Assembly (NCBI RefSeq): GCF_963675975.1
Contig: NZ_OY780939.1
Span: 1,240,001 to 1,304,000 of the forward strand
Length of the DNA: 64,000 bases
Reading direction: 5' to 3'
Source: Halarcobacter sp.
GTDB lineage: Bacteria > Campylobacterota > Campylobacteria > Campylobacterales > Arcobacteraceae
Below the pieces are notes generated by a model. The model saw only the letters and a list, made by a program, of their open reading frames with translations. It did not search any database and was not told the DNA's origin. Of this stretch, positions 26,334 through 31,104 are shown piece after piece; within the stretch, counting starts at the first letter, position 1; the number at the start of each line of letters is the position of its first letter. Both the position numbers and the translations under genes were made by a program.

Positions 26334-27092
26334 TCAAACTGTTTTTGTTTCTATTTTATATCCCATTTTAGAGTGATTGCTTATTAAGTTTTTATTGATT
26401 TTTTGTCTTAATCTAAATAAAACCCCTCTTAGTGCACCTTCTCCAACTAATTCTCCATCATACAAGTAATCTTCTATTGCATCATTTGCAACAACACAAT
26501 TTTCATTTTTTATAAGTATTTCAAAAAGTTTTATCTCTTTTTGATTTAGATTTATCTCTGCATCTTCTAAAAATAGTTTTCTATTCTCTTTATCAAAAAC
26601 ATAACCAAATTTTAGTGTTTTAAATCTTTTTTGTGAGCTTTCACTATTCTCTTTTATATTTTTTTCAAGTGCCACATAATGTTTTTGACTATCTTCTAGT
26701 TTTGTAGTTAACTCTTTTTTATCTGAAAATTTTTTCAAAGCCAACTCAACAGTTGCTTTTAGTTCGGCATCTTTAAAGGGTTTTATTATATATCCATAAG
26801 GTTCATTTTTAATTGCACGTTCAATTGTTGTATATTTATCATTTGCAGTTAAAAAAACAAAAGGTATATCATAGTTTTTTGTTATTGTTTCACTTAATGT
26901 AATTCCATCATCACCATTTTTTAAAGTGATATCCAAAAGTGCTAAATCACAACTGTTTTCTTCTAATAGTTTTAAAGCTTTTTTTATATTTGTAGCAACA
27001 CCAATTACATTGAAACCAAACTCTAAAAGGGCTTCTTTTATATCCATTGCCGTTACAATCTCATCTTCAACAACTAATATGTTTTTCTTCAT
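26334..27092 (-). CDS. Response regulator with winged-helix domain, paralogue of the facing regulator
   Basis: This 252-residue protein has the same design as the regulator facing it: receiver (VVEDEIVTAMDIKEAL, phospho-acceptor Asp in LALLDITLKNG, Lys in IIKPFKD), a linker of about 40 residues, and a winged helix (NQKEIKLFEILIKNENCVV, LRGVLFRLRQKI). Its start overlaps the kinase stop by one base (ATTAATG arrangement at 27092), so it is translationally coupled to the HisKA_2 kinase upstream. Target genes are unknown. Confidence 0.92.
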   Translation of the reverse strand: MKKNILVVEDEIVTAMDIKEALLEFGFNVIGVATNIKKALKLLEENSCDLALLDITLKNGDDGITLSETITKNYDIPFVFLTANDKYTTIERAIKNEPYGYIIKPFKDAELKATVELALKKFSDKKELTTKLEDSQKHYVALEKNIKENSESSQKRFKTLKFGYVFDKENRKLFLEDAEINLNQKEIKLFEILIKNENCVVANDAIEDYLYDGELVGEGALRGVLFRLRQKINKNLISNHSKMGYKIETKTV

Positions 27093-28372
27093 TAATCCTC
27101 TTCTTCTGATATTTCATAAGTGATACTACATGAAAGTCCATTTTCATTTTTAATCTCTAACTCACCCTCAAGTTGAAACTCAACTATTGATTCTATTAGT
27201 TGCCAACCCAAAGAATTATTATTTTTTAGTTTCTCTACATCACAACCAACGCCATTATCTTTTACACCAAATGTTATTTGTTTGTCATTTTGAAAAATAA
27301 AAATATCAATTTTGCCATCATTTTTATCTTTAAAAGCATGTTTAATGCTGTTTAAAAGTAGTTCATGGATTACCAATGCTGTAAGAACCGAGTTATTTAG
27401 ACATAAATTAATATTCTCTTGTACATCTATATTAATCTCAAAGCTATCTTCGAGATTATAAATATCTTTCATAGCAAGAGTTAATTTTTGCAAATATTGT
27501 TCCATATTTATAAATCTTAAATCATCCCCTTGATAGATTATCTCATGAACTAGTGCAATTGCATAAATTCTACTTCTTGTTTTATCAAGTTGAGTATTAA
27601 TTACATCATTTTTTTCTCTTCGTTTTTGCATAGAAAGCAAAGAGGATAAAACTTGCAGATTGTTTTTAACTCTATGATGAATCTCTTTAATTAAAATCTC
27701 TTTTTCTTCCAATGAGCTTTTGATTATTTGTTCTTTTCTTTTTTGTTCAGTAATATCCCTTGCAAAAGCACAAATAAACTCTTCTTTTCCATTTGCAGAA
27801 AAATAGTTTGCAGCTATTAGACAAGGAAAAGATTTCCCATCTTTTGTAGTTAGTTCTGATTCAAAATAGTTAAATTGCTTTTTCTTCTGTATAATGATTT
27901 TTTCAACTTCATGGAACTTTTTATCAATTTTTATAATATGTTCATTTAGCAACTCTTCTTTTGTATATCCCAAAACTTTACATAATCTATTATTTACGTA
28001 TACAATTTTCCCATCAAATTTAAACCAATATATTGCATCAGCTGTATTATCAAGTACAAAATTAATAAGTTTAAGATTTTCACTCTCTTTTTTTTGAAAG
28101 AGTATTAGTTTCTCTTTTGCCTCTTTTTCTATTTTTGCAATACTTCTTAAAAAGAAATATAAAAAAACACTTGTAACTATAAAAAATGTTATTCCTATAA
28201 ATAAAGGTAATTTTGTATCTTGATTATTATCTGTTTGTTGAATAATAAACATTGAAACTTTATTTACAAGAACAATTCCAAAGATTCCAATAATTAAAAA
28301 TGAAAAAGAGTATAGTTTTGCTTTCTTTTCGTTAGGTATTTTAGCAATTACTTTTAAAATGTCATTAAACAT
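27092..28372 (-). CDS. PAS sensor histidine kinase (HisKA_2 type)
   Basis: This 426-residue kinase has two membrane helices (about 20-42 and 55-75) with a very short periplasmic loop, a PAS domain (about 100-210, TADAIYWFKFDGKIVYVNNR), a HisKA_2 domain with His in IKEIHHRVKNNLQVLSSL, and a HATPase domain (DNGVGCD, SLGWQLIES). With little outside the membrane, sensing is probably through PAS. It is co-transcribed with the regulator after it and is a paralogous system to the 7TM kinase pair that it faces. Confidence 0.92.
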   Translation of the reverse strand: MFNDILKVIAKIPNEKKAKLYSFSFLIIGIFGIVLVNKVSMFIIQQTDNNQDTKLPLFIGITFFIVTSVFLYFFLRSIAKIEKEAKEKLILFQKKESENLKLINFVLDNTADAIYWFKFDGKIVYVNNRLCKVLGYTKEELLNEHIIKIDKKFHEVEKIIIQKKKQFNYFESELTTKDGKSFPCLIAANYFSANGKEEFICAFARDITEQKRKEQIIKSSLEEKEILIKEIHHRVKNNLQVLSSLLSMQKRREKNDVINTQLDKTRSRIYAIALVHEIIYQGDDLRFINMEQYLQKLTLAMKDIYNLEDSFEINIDVQENINLCLNNSVLTALVIHELLLNSIKHAFKDKNDGKIDIFIFQNDKQITFGVKDNGVGCDVEKLKNNNSLGWQLIESIVEFQLEGELEIKNENGLSCSITYEISEEED

Positions 28373-28506: not shown

Positions 28507-29115
28507 ATGGATAGACTTTCTAGACGCTCTTTTTTAAAAAGTACAAGTTTAGGAGCAACTATTTTGGCATCAAGTGCCTATAGTAATCCTTTATCTAGTC
28601 TAATTTTGTCAGATAAAAAACAAAAAAATATTGACTTAGACTATGTAATTTTTGATAAAGGAATAGAAAAAAGTGAAGAGTTCGCACAAAAAATGAAAGC
28701 TTTGGGAACTAAAACTTATGAAATAAATAAAGATATATCTCAAATGTGGAGTGAAGTAATCAGTCCAACATGGGGTAAAAATAAAAATACAGCTATAGCG
28801 GGATTAACAACTTATGAAACAATGTTTGTATTAGAAAGACTTGCCTTTGACAAAGGTATGCTTATGTATTTCAATGCCGAACATAATATAGCCAATAACA
28901 ATATCAATCATGAATTACAAGCTTCAAAAGTTGAAATCGACAAGATTAAAAAAAATCTAGATAAATATGATTGGACAGATGCATTAGCTTTAAAAATCAA
29001 TAATTATGAGTATGAAAGAATTGATTCTAAAACTAAAATATCTACAAATAACAATAAAAATGAAAAAAATCAAATATTATATTCTTGGATAATTGCACCA
29101 AGAAAAGTTAGCTAA
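28507..29115 (+). CDS. Tat-signal periplasmic protein, possible partner of the cresol-dehydrogenase-like flavoprotein
   Basis: This 202-residue protein opens with a textbook twin-arginine signal, SRRSFLK at residues 5-11, followed by a hydrophobic stretch to about residue 30. The mature part has no cofactor motif that I recognise; SPTWGKNKNTAIAGLTTYETMFVLERLAFDKG is its most hydrophobic segment (given in part). ATG 28507 has AAGGAG 6 bases upstream. The flavoprotein gene follows after 11 bases, so they are co-transcribed. The Pseudomonas p-cresol operon, as I recall it, also has an extra gene (pchX) of unknown function; whether they are homologous I cannot tell. A role in Tat export or assembly of the flavoprotein is my inference. 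Confidence 0.75.
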   Translation: MDRLSRRSFLKSTSLGATILASSAYSNPLSSLILSDKKQKNIDLDYVIFDKGIEKSEEFAQKMKALGTKTYEINKDISQMWSEVISPTWGKNKNTAIAGLTTYETMFVLERLAFDKGMLMYFNAEHNIANNNINHELQASKVEIDKIKKNLDKYDWTDALALKINNYEYERIDSKTKISTNNNKNEKNQILYSWIIAPRKVS

Positions 29116-29126
29116 AGGAGATTTAT

Positions 29127-30773
29127 ATGTCTAAAAATGAAGAGATAATATTACCAAATGGCGTTAGCCAAGGAGATTTTTTACAAGCAGTAAAAGAGCT
29201 TGAAAAAGTTACAGGTAAACAATGGGTTTTTAAAACTAAAGATGATTTACACTTATATAGAGATGCATATTCTCCATATTGGGATGAACCAGAAGAACCA
29301 ATCCCATCTTTAGCTATTGCACCTAAAGAAGTAGATGAGGTACAAGAGATTGTAAAAATTGCAAACAAATATGGATTACCACTTTTCCCAATTTCTACAG
29401 GTAAAAATTTAGGTTATGGATCTTCTGCACCAAACAACAGAGGTGATGTGGTAGTTGATTTAAAAAGAATGAATAAAATTATTGAAGTAAATGATAAAAG
29501 AAACTACTGTATTTTAGAACCAGGTGTATCATATTTTGATCTTTATGAATATTGTGAAAAAAACAATCTAAATGTGATGATGGATATGCCAGATCCAGGT
29601 TGGGGAAGTCCTGTTGGGAACTCACTTGATCATGGATGGGGATATATGCATGGACAATATAGAGATCACTTTGGGGCACACTGTGGTATGGAAGTTGTTT
29701 TAGCAAATGGTGAACTAATGAGAACTGGTATGGGAGCACTTCCTGGAGCAAAAACTTTTGCAGAGAATAAATATGGTTATGGACCATATGTTGATGGACT
29801 TTTCTCTCAATCAAATTTTGGGATTGTAACAAAAATGGGATTTTGGATGATGCCAAAACCTGAGCATTACTCTTTAGCTGTATTAACAGTACCTAAAAGA
29901 GATGATTTAATTCCTCTTGTTGAGATTATGAATTATTTAGAAGATTCATCAATTATTGGTTGGCCTTTATATAGAAGTCCATTAAATCCTGAATATGGAA
30001 AACCAATGAATCCTGAATTAAAATTATATTTAACATCTAAAAATGGGAAACCAGATATTGATAAAATTCAAGATTATGCACTTAGAAACAAAATTCCATA
30101 TTGGAAAATAGATATTCCTTTATATGGAAATAAAGAAGCAGTTGAAGCAAATATTAGATACATAAGAGATAGATTTTCAAGTGCAATAGAGGGTGCAAAA
30201 GTAGAAGTTGAAGAGGATTATGCTTTACCTTTATCTGATGAGCAGAAAAAAGCAGTTAAACATAAAGTTACACTAGGTATCCCAAATCTTGAAATTTTTT
30301 GGTTAAGTACTAGAGGTGAAAACTTTGGACCAAAAGATGGACATGTATGGTTCTCTCCTATTATTCCAAGGGATGGAGCTGAGTTATTAAAATGTCAAGA
30401 AATATATATTGATACTTTCCATGAATTAGGAATGGAATCTATGATTACACCATTTTCTCACCCAAGAACTTGGATGTATAGAGCCTTTTGTTTTATGATT
30501 GGATTTGCAAATTCAAGGGATGATAAAGAGAAAAATGCACAAATGAGAAAAGTATATAATACTATGGTTAAAGTTGCAGCAAAACATGGTTGGGGTGATT
30601 ATAGAGCTGCACCACCTTTCCAAGATGCAGTATCTAATGTGTATAGTTTTAATAATCATATATTAAAAAGATTTGCAGAAGAGTTAAAAGATACTATTGA
30701 TCCAAATGGAATACTAGCTCCAGGTAGAGGGGGAATTTGGCCTAAAAGATTAAGAGGAGATAAAAATGCTTAA
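29127..30773 (+). CDS. Flavoprotein of p-cresol methylhydroxylase / vanillyl-alcohol oxidase type
   Basis: This 548-residue FAD enzyme belongs to the VAO/PCMH family. The FAD-binding domain shows PISTGKNLGYGSSAPNNRGD and DLKRMNKIIEVND; the C-terminus has the family ending DPNGILAPGRGGIWP. Tyr492-Arg493 in GWGDYRA match the Tyr-Arg pair that binds the phenolate of the substrate in VAO and PCMH, so a para-substituted phenol is the likely substrate, with oxidation at the benzylic carbon. I could not place the residue that links FAD covalently. It has no signal peptide, although the cytochrome partner is exported. It lies between a Tat-signal gene and the cytochrome gene, overlapping the latter by 8 bases. 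Confidence 0.9.
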   Translation: MSKNEEIILPNGVSQGDFLQAVKELEKVTGKQWVFKTKDDLHLYRDAYSPYWDEPEEPIPSLAIAPKEVDEVQEIVKIANKYGLPLFPISTGKNLGYGSSAPNNRGDVVVDLKRMNKIIEVNDKRNYCILEPGVSYFDLYEYCEKNNLNVMMDMPDPGWGSPVGNSLDHGWGYMHGQYRDHFGAHCGMEVVLANGELMRTGMGALPGAKTFAENKYGYGPYVDGLFSQSNFGIVTKMGFWMMPKPEHYSLAVLTVPKRDDLIPLVEIMNYLEDSSIIGWPLYRSPLNPEYGKPMNPELKLYLTSKNGKPDIDKIQDYALRNKIPYWKIDIPLYGNKEAVEANIRYIRDRFSSAIEGAKVEVEEDYALPLSDEQKKAVKHKVTLGIPNLEIFWLSTRGENFGPKDGHVWFSPIIPRDGAELLKCQEIYIDTFHELGMESMITPFSHPRTWMYRAFCFMIGFANSRDDKEKNAQMRKVYNTMVKVAAKHGWGDYRAAPPFQDAVSNVYSFNNHILKRFAEELKDTIDPNGILAPGRGGIWPKRLRGDKNA

Positions 30774-31104
30774 AAATATGAAAATTTTATTAATACTAGC
30801 AACCATCTTAGCTAGTTCACTATATGCAAATGATTCTTCAAAATTTAAAGAAGGAAAACAAGTATTTGATAAATGGTGCGTGCATTGTCATGGTATAGGA
30901 ATGCCTGCAACTGATGCATTAGGGATTGTATATAAAGATACAGGTATCTCTCCTGTTCTTGAACAAAGAAAAGATTTGGATGCTGGATTTGTTGATTATG
31001 TGGTTAGAAATGGAAGATTTAGTATGCCCTTTTTTAGAAAAACAGAAATCAATGACAAACAATTAGAAAGCTTATCTTTTTACCTTTCTACTAAAAATAA
31101 ATAA
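30766..31104 (+). CDS. Periplasmic c-type cytochrome, PchC-like electron acceptor
   Basis: This 112-residue protein has a Sec signal peptide (about 1-21, ending SLYAND) and one haem c site, CVHCH at about 38-42. Met in RFSMPFF is the probable sixth ligand. The size is that of the small cytochrome subunit of p-cresol methylhydroxylase, which takes electrons from the flavoprotein. AGGAG precedes the ATG, and the start overlaps the flavoprotein stop by 8 bases, giving translational coupling. Electrons would pass on to the respiratory chain. Confidence 0.92.
   Translation: MLKNMKILLILATILASSLYANDSSKFKEGKQVFDKWCVHCHGIGMPATDALGIVYKDTGISPVLEQRKDLDAGFVDYVVRNGRFSMPFFRKTEINDKQLESLSFYLSTKNK

Follow-up and report, generated by a model that had tools for sequence, protein, structure and literature searches.

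A small Tat-signal protein, here called X, is likely the dedicated Tat carrier (hitchhiker partner) of a PCMH-type flavoprotein, F, that has no export signal of its own and is encoded beside it in Halarcobacter sp. The basis for this reading is shown below and consists of the gene order, the export signals, a near-obligate co-occurrence, the lack of X at loci whose F carries a Tat signal itself, and a TatC encoded by the host; the binding of F by X, their co-export, the dependence of export on X and the hand-over in the periplasm are inferred. FAD is bound in the cytoplasm, and proteins that are already folded depend on Tat for export, which is why a carrier would be needed. According to this model, F would fold and bind FAD in the cytoplasm, where X would bind it, perhaps also acting as a chaperone or quality gate; the pair would then be exported by Tat via the signal on X, and in the periplasm F would meet the separately exported, heme-loaded cytochrome c and hand it electrons.

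The window (the whole stretch of 64 000 nucleotides that was analyzed) contains a tight operon at 28507-31104 with the gene order X-F-cytochrome. X, a protein of 202 amino acids (28507..29115, + strand), is preceded by aaaggaga just 5' of its ATG and begins MDRLSRRSFLKSTSLGATILASSAYSNP, a consensus Tat signal with the twin-arginine motif SRRSFLK at 28519..28539 (+ strand). No cofactor motif was seen in X, and Pfam returned only sub-threshold matches to TAT_signal and Mfa_like_2 for this protein. F follows after 11 bp (29127..30773, + strand; 548 amino acids) and begins MSKNEEIILPNGVSQ; its open frame of 553 codons is just five codons longer than the protein and therefore leaves no room for a signal. 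F matches the Pfam family FAD_binding_4 at 1.4e-27, and its best PDB match is the p-cresol methylhydroxylase 9h40 (569 bits over residues 9-544), so that membership of the VAO/PCMH family is met by sequence match. The gene of the c-type cytochrome (30766..31104, + strand), which overlaps that of F by 8 bp, places F among the cytochrome-linked flavoproteins of this family; it encodes a Sec-like signal and the heme c motif CVHCH (30877..30891, + strand), and its product is the proposed electron acceptor of F. The host genome has one copy of X and encodes TatC. The original prediction of a signal-less PCMH/VAO-like flavoprotein, an exported cytochrome and an upstream small SRRSFLK Tat protein without a cofactor motif thus held. 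A histidine kinase and a response regulator (26334-28372, - strand) are divergent from this operon and may possibly sense its substrate; the position of the kinase is conserved in loci L007-L011, and a cytochrome-X-F operon in Sulfuricurvum (L016) is likewise adjoined by a kinase and a regulator.

Frequent occurrence of the Tat gene without the flavoprotein would have refuted the proposal, and this is not what we found. Among 60 genomes (the host's own and those of relatives), F occurs in 7 and X in 6 of these 7, directly upstream of F each time; the seventh F (L013) is preceded by a 125-aa RR-signal protein in the place of X. A profile was built from 56 X sequences drawn from 91 loci (79 from the best-80 set described below, 7 from relatives and 5 plasmid loci). 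In a search of 298 Campylobacterota genomes (own included), X matched 20 at E 0.001, of which 17 were clear (E <=2.8e-12), and every clear X adjoins an F (17/17). Three weak matches (G088, G173 and G251; E 1.5e-4 to 9.4e-4) were excluded from the 17; their frames are long (403 to 859 codons), and they align to the beginning of the profile only, covering 26 to 61 of its first 62 positions out of a total of 184. F was found in 23 of the 298 genomes, with an adjacent RR-signal gene in 21. These 23 are the same 17 that hold a clear X, four in which an RR-signal protein sits between the cytochrome and F (G109, G234, G248 and G326), one in which the ORF beside F is cut by the start of the contig and resembles X at its C-terminus (G296), and one with only a fragment of F, next to an ORF resembling a transposase by eye (G152). 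At two loci (L104, in G262, and G150:C1:75220-77199) F is broken by stops or into two frames and the neighbouring X is intact.

The association extends beyond the Campylobacterota. In ten other genomes, picked for holding an X-F locus from the best-80 set, 20 of 22 X matches have an F at a distance of about 1.2 kb or less (10/12 beyond the chosen ones), and the two that do not are both in G337, a single genome in which F is matched 11 times and X 9 times. Matches to the F alignment (A1) were retrieved from 18 of 300 Burkholderiales genomes. All ten with F above 500 bits, one of them the chosen centre of the sample, encode an adjacent RR-signal protein, and none of the eight lower-scoring FAD_binding_4 matches (<360 bits) has an X accepted by eye; a loose RR filter flags strings in five of these eight (L115, L117, L119, L120 and L122), which were judged not to be X by eye. 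For a Tat hitchhiker pair, the partners should be co-encoded and co-inherited, which is met here with exceptions, and a Tat signal should be present on one partner and absent from the client, which is also met.

For a wider survey we gathered 155 loci and left out 20 with a short flank or a score under 450, so that 135 loci were counted. The wider locus set includes the best-80 set, the top 80 of at least 559 confirmed candidates from a capped list, which is not a random sample. X accompanies 85 of the 94 signal-less F with a cytochrome; 72 of these X were identified by the profile, 12 by the RR filter and by eye, and one (L017), which the RR filter missed, by eye. It also accompanies 16 of the 26 signal-less F without a detected cytochrome. 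One of the latter loci (L080) does have a cytochrome on inspection, and its inclusion changes 85/94 to 86/95. The presence of X thus does not strictly track that of the cytochrome. Four plasmid-borne F without a cytochrome (two from Rhodococcus, one from Corynebacterium and one from Rhizobium leguminosarum) have neither X nor a signal, but other F without one still have X (for example L113, L114, L126 and L127). For the X-F pairs at L126, L127 and L153-L160 no small cytochrome c gene was found nearby, and the pairs at L126 and L127 adjoin aldehyde dehydrogenase and hydroxyarylic acid decarboxylase genes. Nine signal-less F with a cytochrome lack a complete X nearby (L034, in which X is cut short, L047, L051, L055, L069, L073, L087, L096 and L152); eight of the nine come from metagenome-assembled genomes (MAGs), and in the F tree they are nine single tips. 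An early count of 79 loci (62 with cytochrome and X, 8 with neither, 7 with cytochrome only and 2 with X only) is replaced by the 135-locus count, and apparent F-cytochrome fusions in L047 and L080 were rejected, their single frames being overlapping frames.

To what extent could such neighbours arise by chance? Among 93 signal-less F with a cytochrome, 64 have an RR gene directly upstream (-60 to 260 bp), whereas the same filter finds one at just 1 of 98 positions shifted by 3.6 kb; its position upstream of F is therefore not due to chance. A looser RR filter flags 11 of the 98 control positions. Where an RR gene does lie directly upstream of a signal-less F (73 cases), X ends at most 84 bp before the F profile (<=60 bp in 68; median 9), so that a signal on F would have little or no space. 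The distance from the start codon of F to the profile likewise has a median of 0 and a maximum of 15 residues (n = 129); as this measure takes the nearest start codon, it is biased to short N-termini, and the gap count is the better one.

A natural complement to the X-F pairs, which the original prediction did not foresee, is provided by flavoproteins that carry their own Tat signal and are without X. In Novosphingobium sp. ES2-1 (L128) the genes run cytochrome-F without an X, and F itself begins MSDLNLDRRGLLGAGIIGAASLGLGTGASA ahead of the usual start. With this F as query against 396 genomes of the order to which Altererythrobacter (L068) belongs, 50 genomes gave matches and 30 loci were obtained: 14 in which F has its own Tat signal and there is no X, and 16 in which F has no such signal, 15 of them with an RR-signal neighbour (none at L152). 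Across the 135 loci, X accompanies none of the 15 own-Tat F (0/15), of which 14 have a cytochrome at the locus. The RR filter flags strings beside five own-Tat F (L138, L145, L146, L147 and L149), which are not X by eye. In the midpoint-rooted F tree the 15 form one sphingomonad clade (SH-aLRT 100) inside a group of 31 rows (98), the other 16 rows of which have X; branching within this group is open. A Fisher test of own Tat signal against X gives 6e-12 when loci are counted as independent. Since the own-Tat F all fall in one clade, they represent about one event and not fifteen, and this value overstates their independence. That a carrier be dispensable when its client has its own Tat signal is thus met, in one clade only.

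X constitutes a protein family with no assigned function, found from Campylobacterota to Acidobacteriota. Its members share the RR signal, a core of the form GD-[IT]-x-x-LW ... GLT ... FxLExLA, and a C-terminal strand like LVSWVIAP. RR is invariant in the 42 rows of the X alignment (A3), which had been chosen for RR. A profile restricted to the core, with the signal left out, retrieved 79 ORFs, up to 42 of which had belonged to its training set; 78 have an RR signal by script and the 79th (L071, ISRREFVKW) by eye. Size varies, from 124-144 aa in Campylobacter/Helicobacter loci (L019-L022 and L030) to 286-313 aa in L106-L109. No curated family in Pfam or NCBIfam covers X above cut-off beyond the Tat signal: at E 0.01, Pfam found just TAT_signal (11 members) and Mfa_like_2 (1 member) among the 42. 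NCBIfam found a Tat signal in 3 members, and three further families matched 1/42 members each (E 0.0018 to 0.0082), which we took as chance. The AlphaFold model of X is an alpha/beta domain (pLDDT 82.1, pTM 0.73) for which no match was found in the PDB at E 0.001. Its best structural match (Z 6.1) is below standout level, several rows being lobes of periplasmic binding proteins, and was not used as evidence.

The original prediction also drew a link to the extra gene of p-cresol operons. In Pseudomonas the operon order is pchACXF, with the unassigned pchX between the genes of the cytochrome and the flavoprotein. This position is not met in the window, where, unlike in Pseudomonas, X comes first and the cytochrome last. 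It is matched in seven Burkholderiales loci (L106-L112), where X bears an RR signal and the genes run cytochrome-X-F, and F of L110, the sole one of these compared, scores 949 bits against Pseudomonas 4-cresol dehydrogenase. The same order occurs in L016 and L098-L101, and in the tree the F of all these loci form one group with L110. The X proteins encoded in operons of this order are probably homologous to the window type, although this rests on a weak profile score: with signals removed, the two types compare at 30.1 (E 5e-4) vs at most 12.3 in 40 column shuffles (a first comparison gave 25.8 vs 13.0 in 20 shuffles). The predicted link is supported by position and by the L110 match only. The tyrosine that binds FAD covalently in PchF (Tyr384) is absent from the window F, which has Ser at that column, and we therefore assign F to the wider VAO/PCMH family and not to the classical PchCF p-cresol methylhydroxylases.

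A related system is BpfAB, whose BpfA is said to lack the covalent-FAD tyrosine too (PMC12724174). For Sphingobium yanoikuyae DN12, a strain deleted for bpf and plasmids that complement it have been described (PMC12724174). Placement of PCMH in the periplasm dates from 1985 (Hopper et al., in the reference list of PMC12724174). The 2025 study itself (PMC12724174) cites a periplasmic PchCF, reports a signal in BpfB and none in BpfA, with the same pattern in PchCF and PcmIG, and supposes that BpfA is guided by the signal of the cytochrome. BpfA is reported to be 100% identical to a protein of Sphingobium yanoikuyae SJTF8 (PMC12724174), and on plasmid pF1 of that strain we found the order FAD-binding oxidoreductase, cytochrome c, hypothetical protein, alpha/beta hydrolase and NAD(P)/FAD-dependent oxidoreductase. 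The hypothetical protein, 3' of the cytochrome, begins MSAIEVTRRVALGAGALGVGAVALSSFA, an RR signal. The X profile does not match it, and it is therefore X by place and signal only. As bpfA1, its cytochrome, bpfD1 and bpfC1 are orf5019, 5018, 5016 and 5015 (PMC12724174), orf5017, which is not named in the relevant passages of that paper, would by position be the RR-signal gene. We found neither a Tat carrier of PCMH nor an account of pchX in the open-access literature searched (mostly titles and abstracts).

The hitchhiker reading proposed originally is thus supported by genomics, and complex formation and the dependence of export on X remain inferred. At five loci with X and F in one frame, we read through the X stop and folded the pair as one chain, together with X-only and F-only rows; the model (pTM 0.69) gave no evidence of an interface. 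In a bolder reading, which is rather less likely than not, X would be a family-wide export gate for PCMH-type flavoproteins, clasping only FAD-loaded F, taking it through Tat and releasing it when the heme-loaded cytochrome docks. Assembly would thus be checked on both sides of the membrane, and one sphingomonad lineage would have given up this check when the Tat signal was transferred to F itself.

Among the alternatives, the one that survives best, though we consider it unlikely, is that X is exported alone and acts in the periplasm as an assembly factor or third subunit, F leaving the cytoplasm by another route. In its favour, conservation in X extends past the signal into a core, a domain of X is confidently predicted, and in some loci X follows F or the cytochrome, as a late-acting factor might. 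Against it, no other export signal is visible on F, and the own-Tat F without X retain a cytochrome in 14/15 loci, so that a purely periplasmic role of X is not needed there. A second alternative, which we regard as very improbable, is that the signal of the cytochrome brings F to the periplasm. This is the route proposed for BpfAB (PMC12724174), and the partner cytochromes inspected do carry export signals. However, chains pass through Sec unfolded and receive heme c outside, and an FAD protein that is already folded should thus be unable to travel with the cytochrome; moreover, in SJTF8, the strain whose F is called identical to BpfA, the cytochrome gene is followed by one with an RR signal, and in the own-Tat clade F carries a signal although the cytochrome is retained. 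That X serves covalent flavinylation or FAD loading, its Tat signal being incidental, is also highly doubtful: across the searched genomes X is indeed found with an FAD protein and hardly anything else, but among 99 tree rows labelled with X the tyrosine at the covalent-FAD position of PchF is present in 16 and absent in 83, with Ser in the window F, so that X is not tied to covalent FAD, and the Tat signal is retained in all the core-profile matches.

A dedicated carrier, our preferred reading, would explain in a simple and testable way how PCMH can be periplasmic with a flavoprotein that has no predicted signal. If true, X is what should be co-expressed with such dehydrogenases acting on lignin- or bisphenol-derived phenols. 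The closest parallel is the gamma subunit of the FAD glucose dehydrogenase of Burkholderia cepacia, described as a hitchhiker needed for folding and secretion (PMC6719666), which like X is a small Tat-signal protein accompanying an FAD dehydrogenase subunit and a cytochrome c subunit. Its client, unlike F, is a GMC enzyme with a 3Fe-4S cluster, and it is reported to consist of five alpha helices, whereas X is predicted to be alpha/beta; none of the 42 X members matched the Pfam models of FAD-GDH gamma-type subunits at E 0.01. X would thus do the job of gamma for another flavoenzyme family, using a protein without Pfam relation to it. In the Streptomyces tyrosinase MelC1-MelC2, a small Tat-signal caddie carries a folded signal-less enzyme, although the client there is a copper enzyme and not an FAD protein. 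In PaoABC (PMC4273604) and the hydrogenase and formate dehydrogenase hitchhikers (PMC10924467) the Tat signal of one subunit serves the others, as proposed for X, which differs from them in having no visible cofactor motif. X would extend this set of known Tat hitchhikers by a carrier family for which Pfam has no dedicated model.
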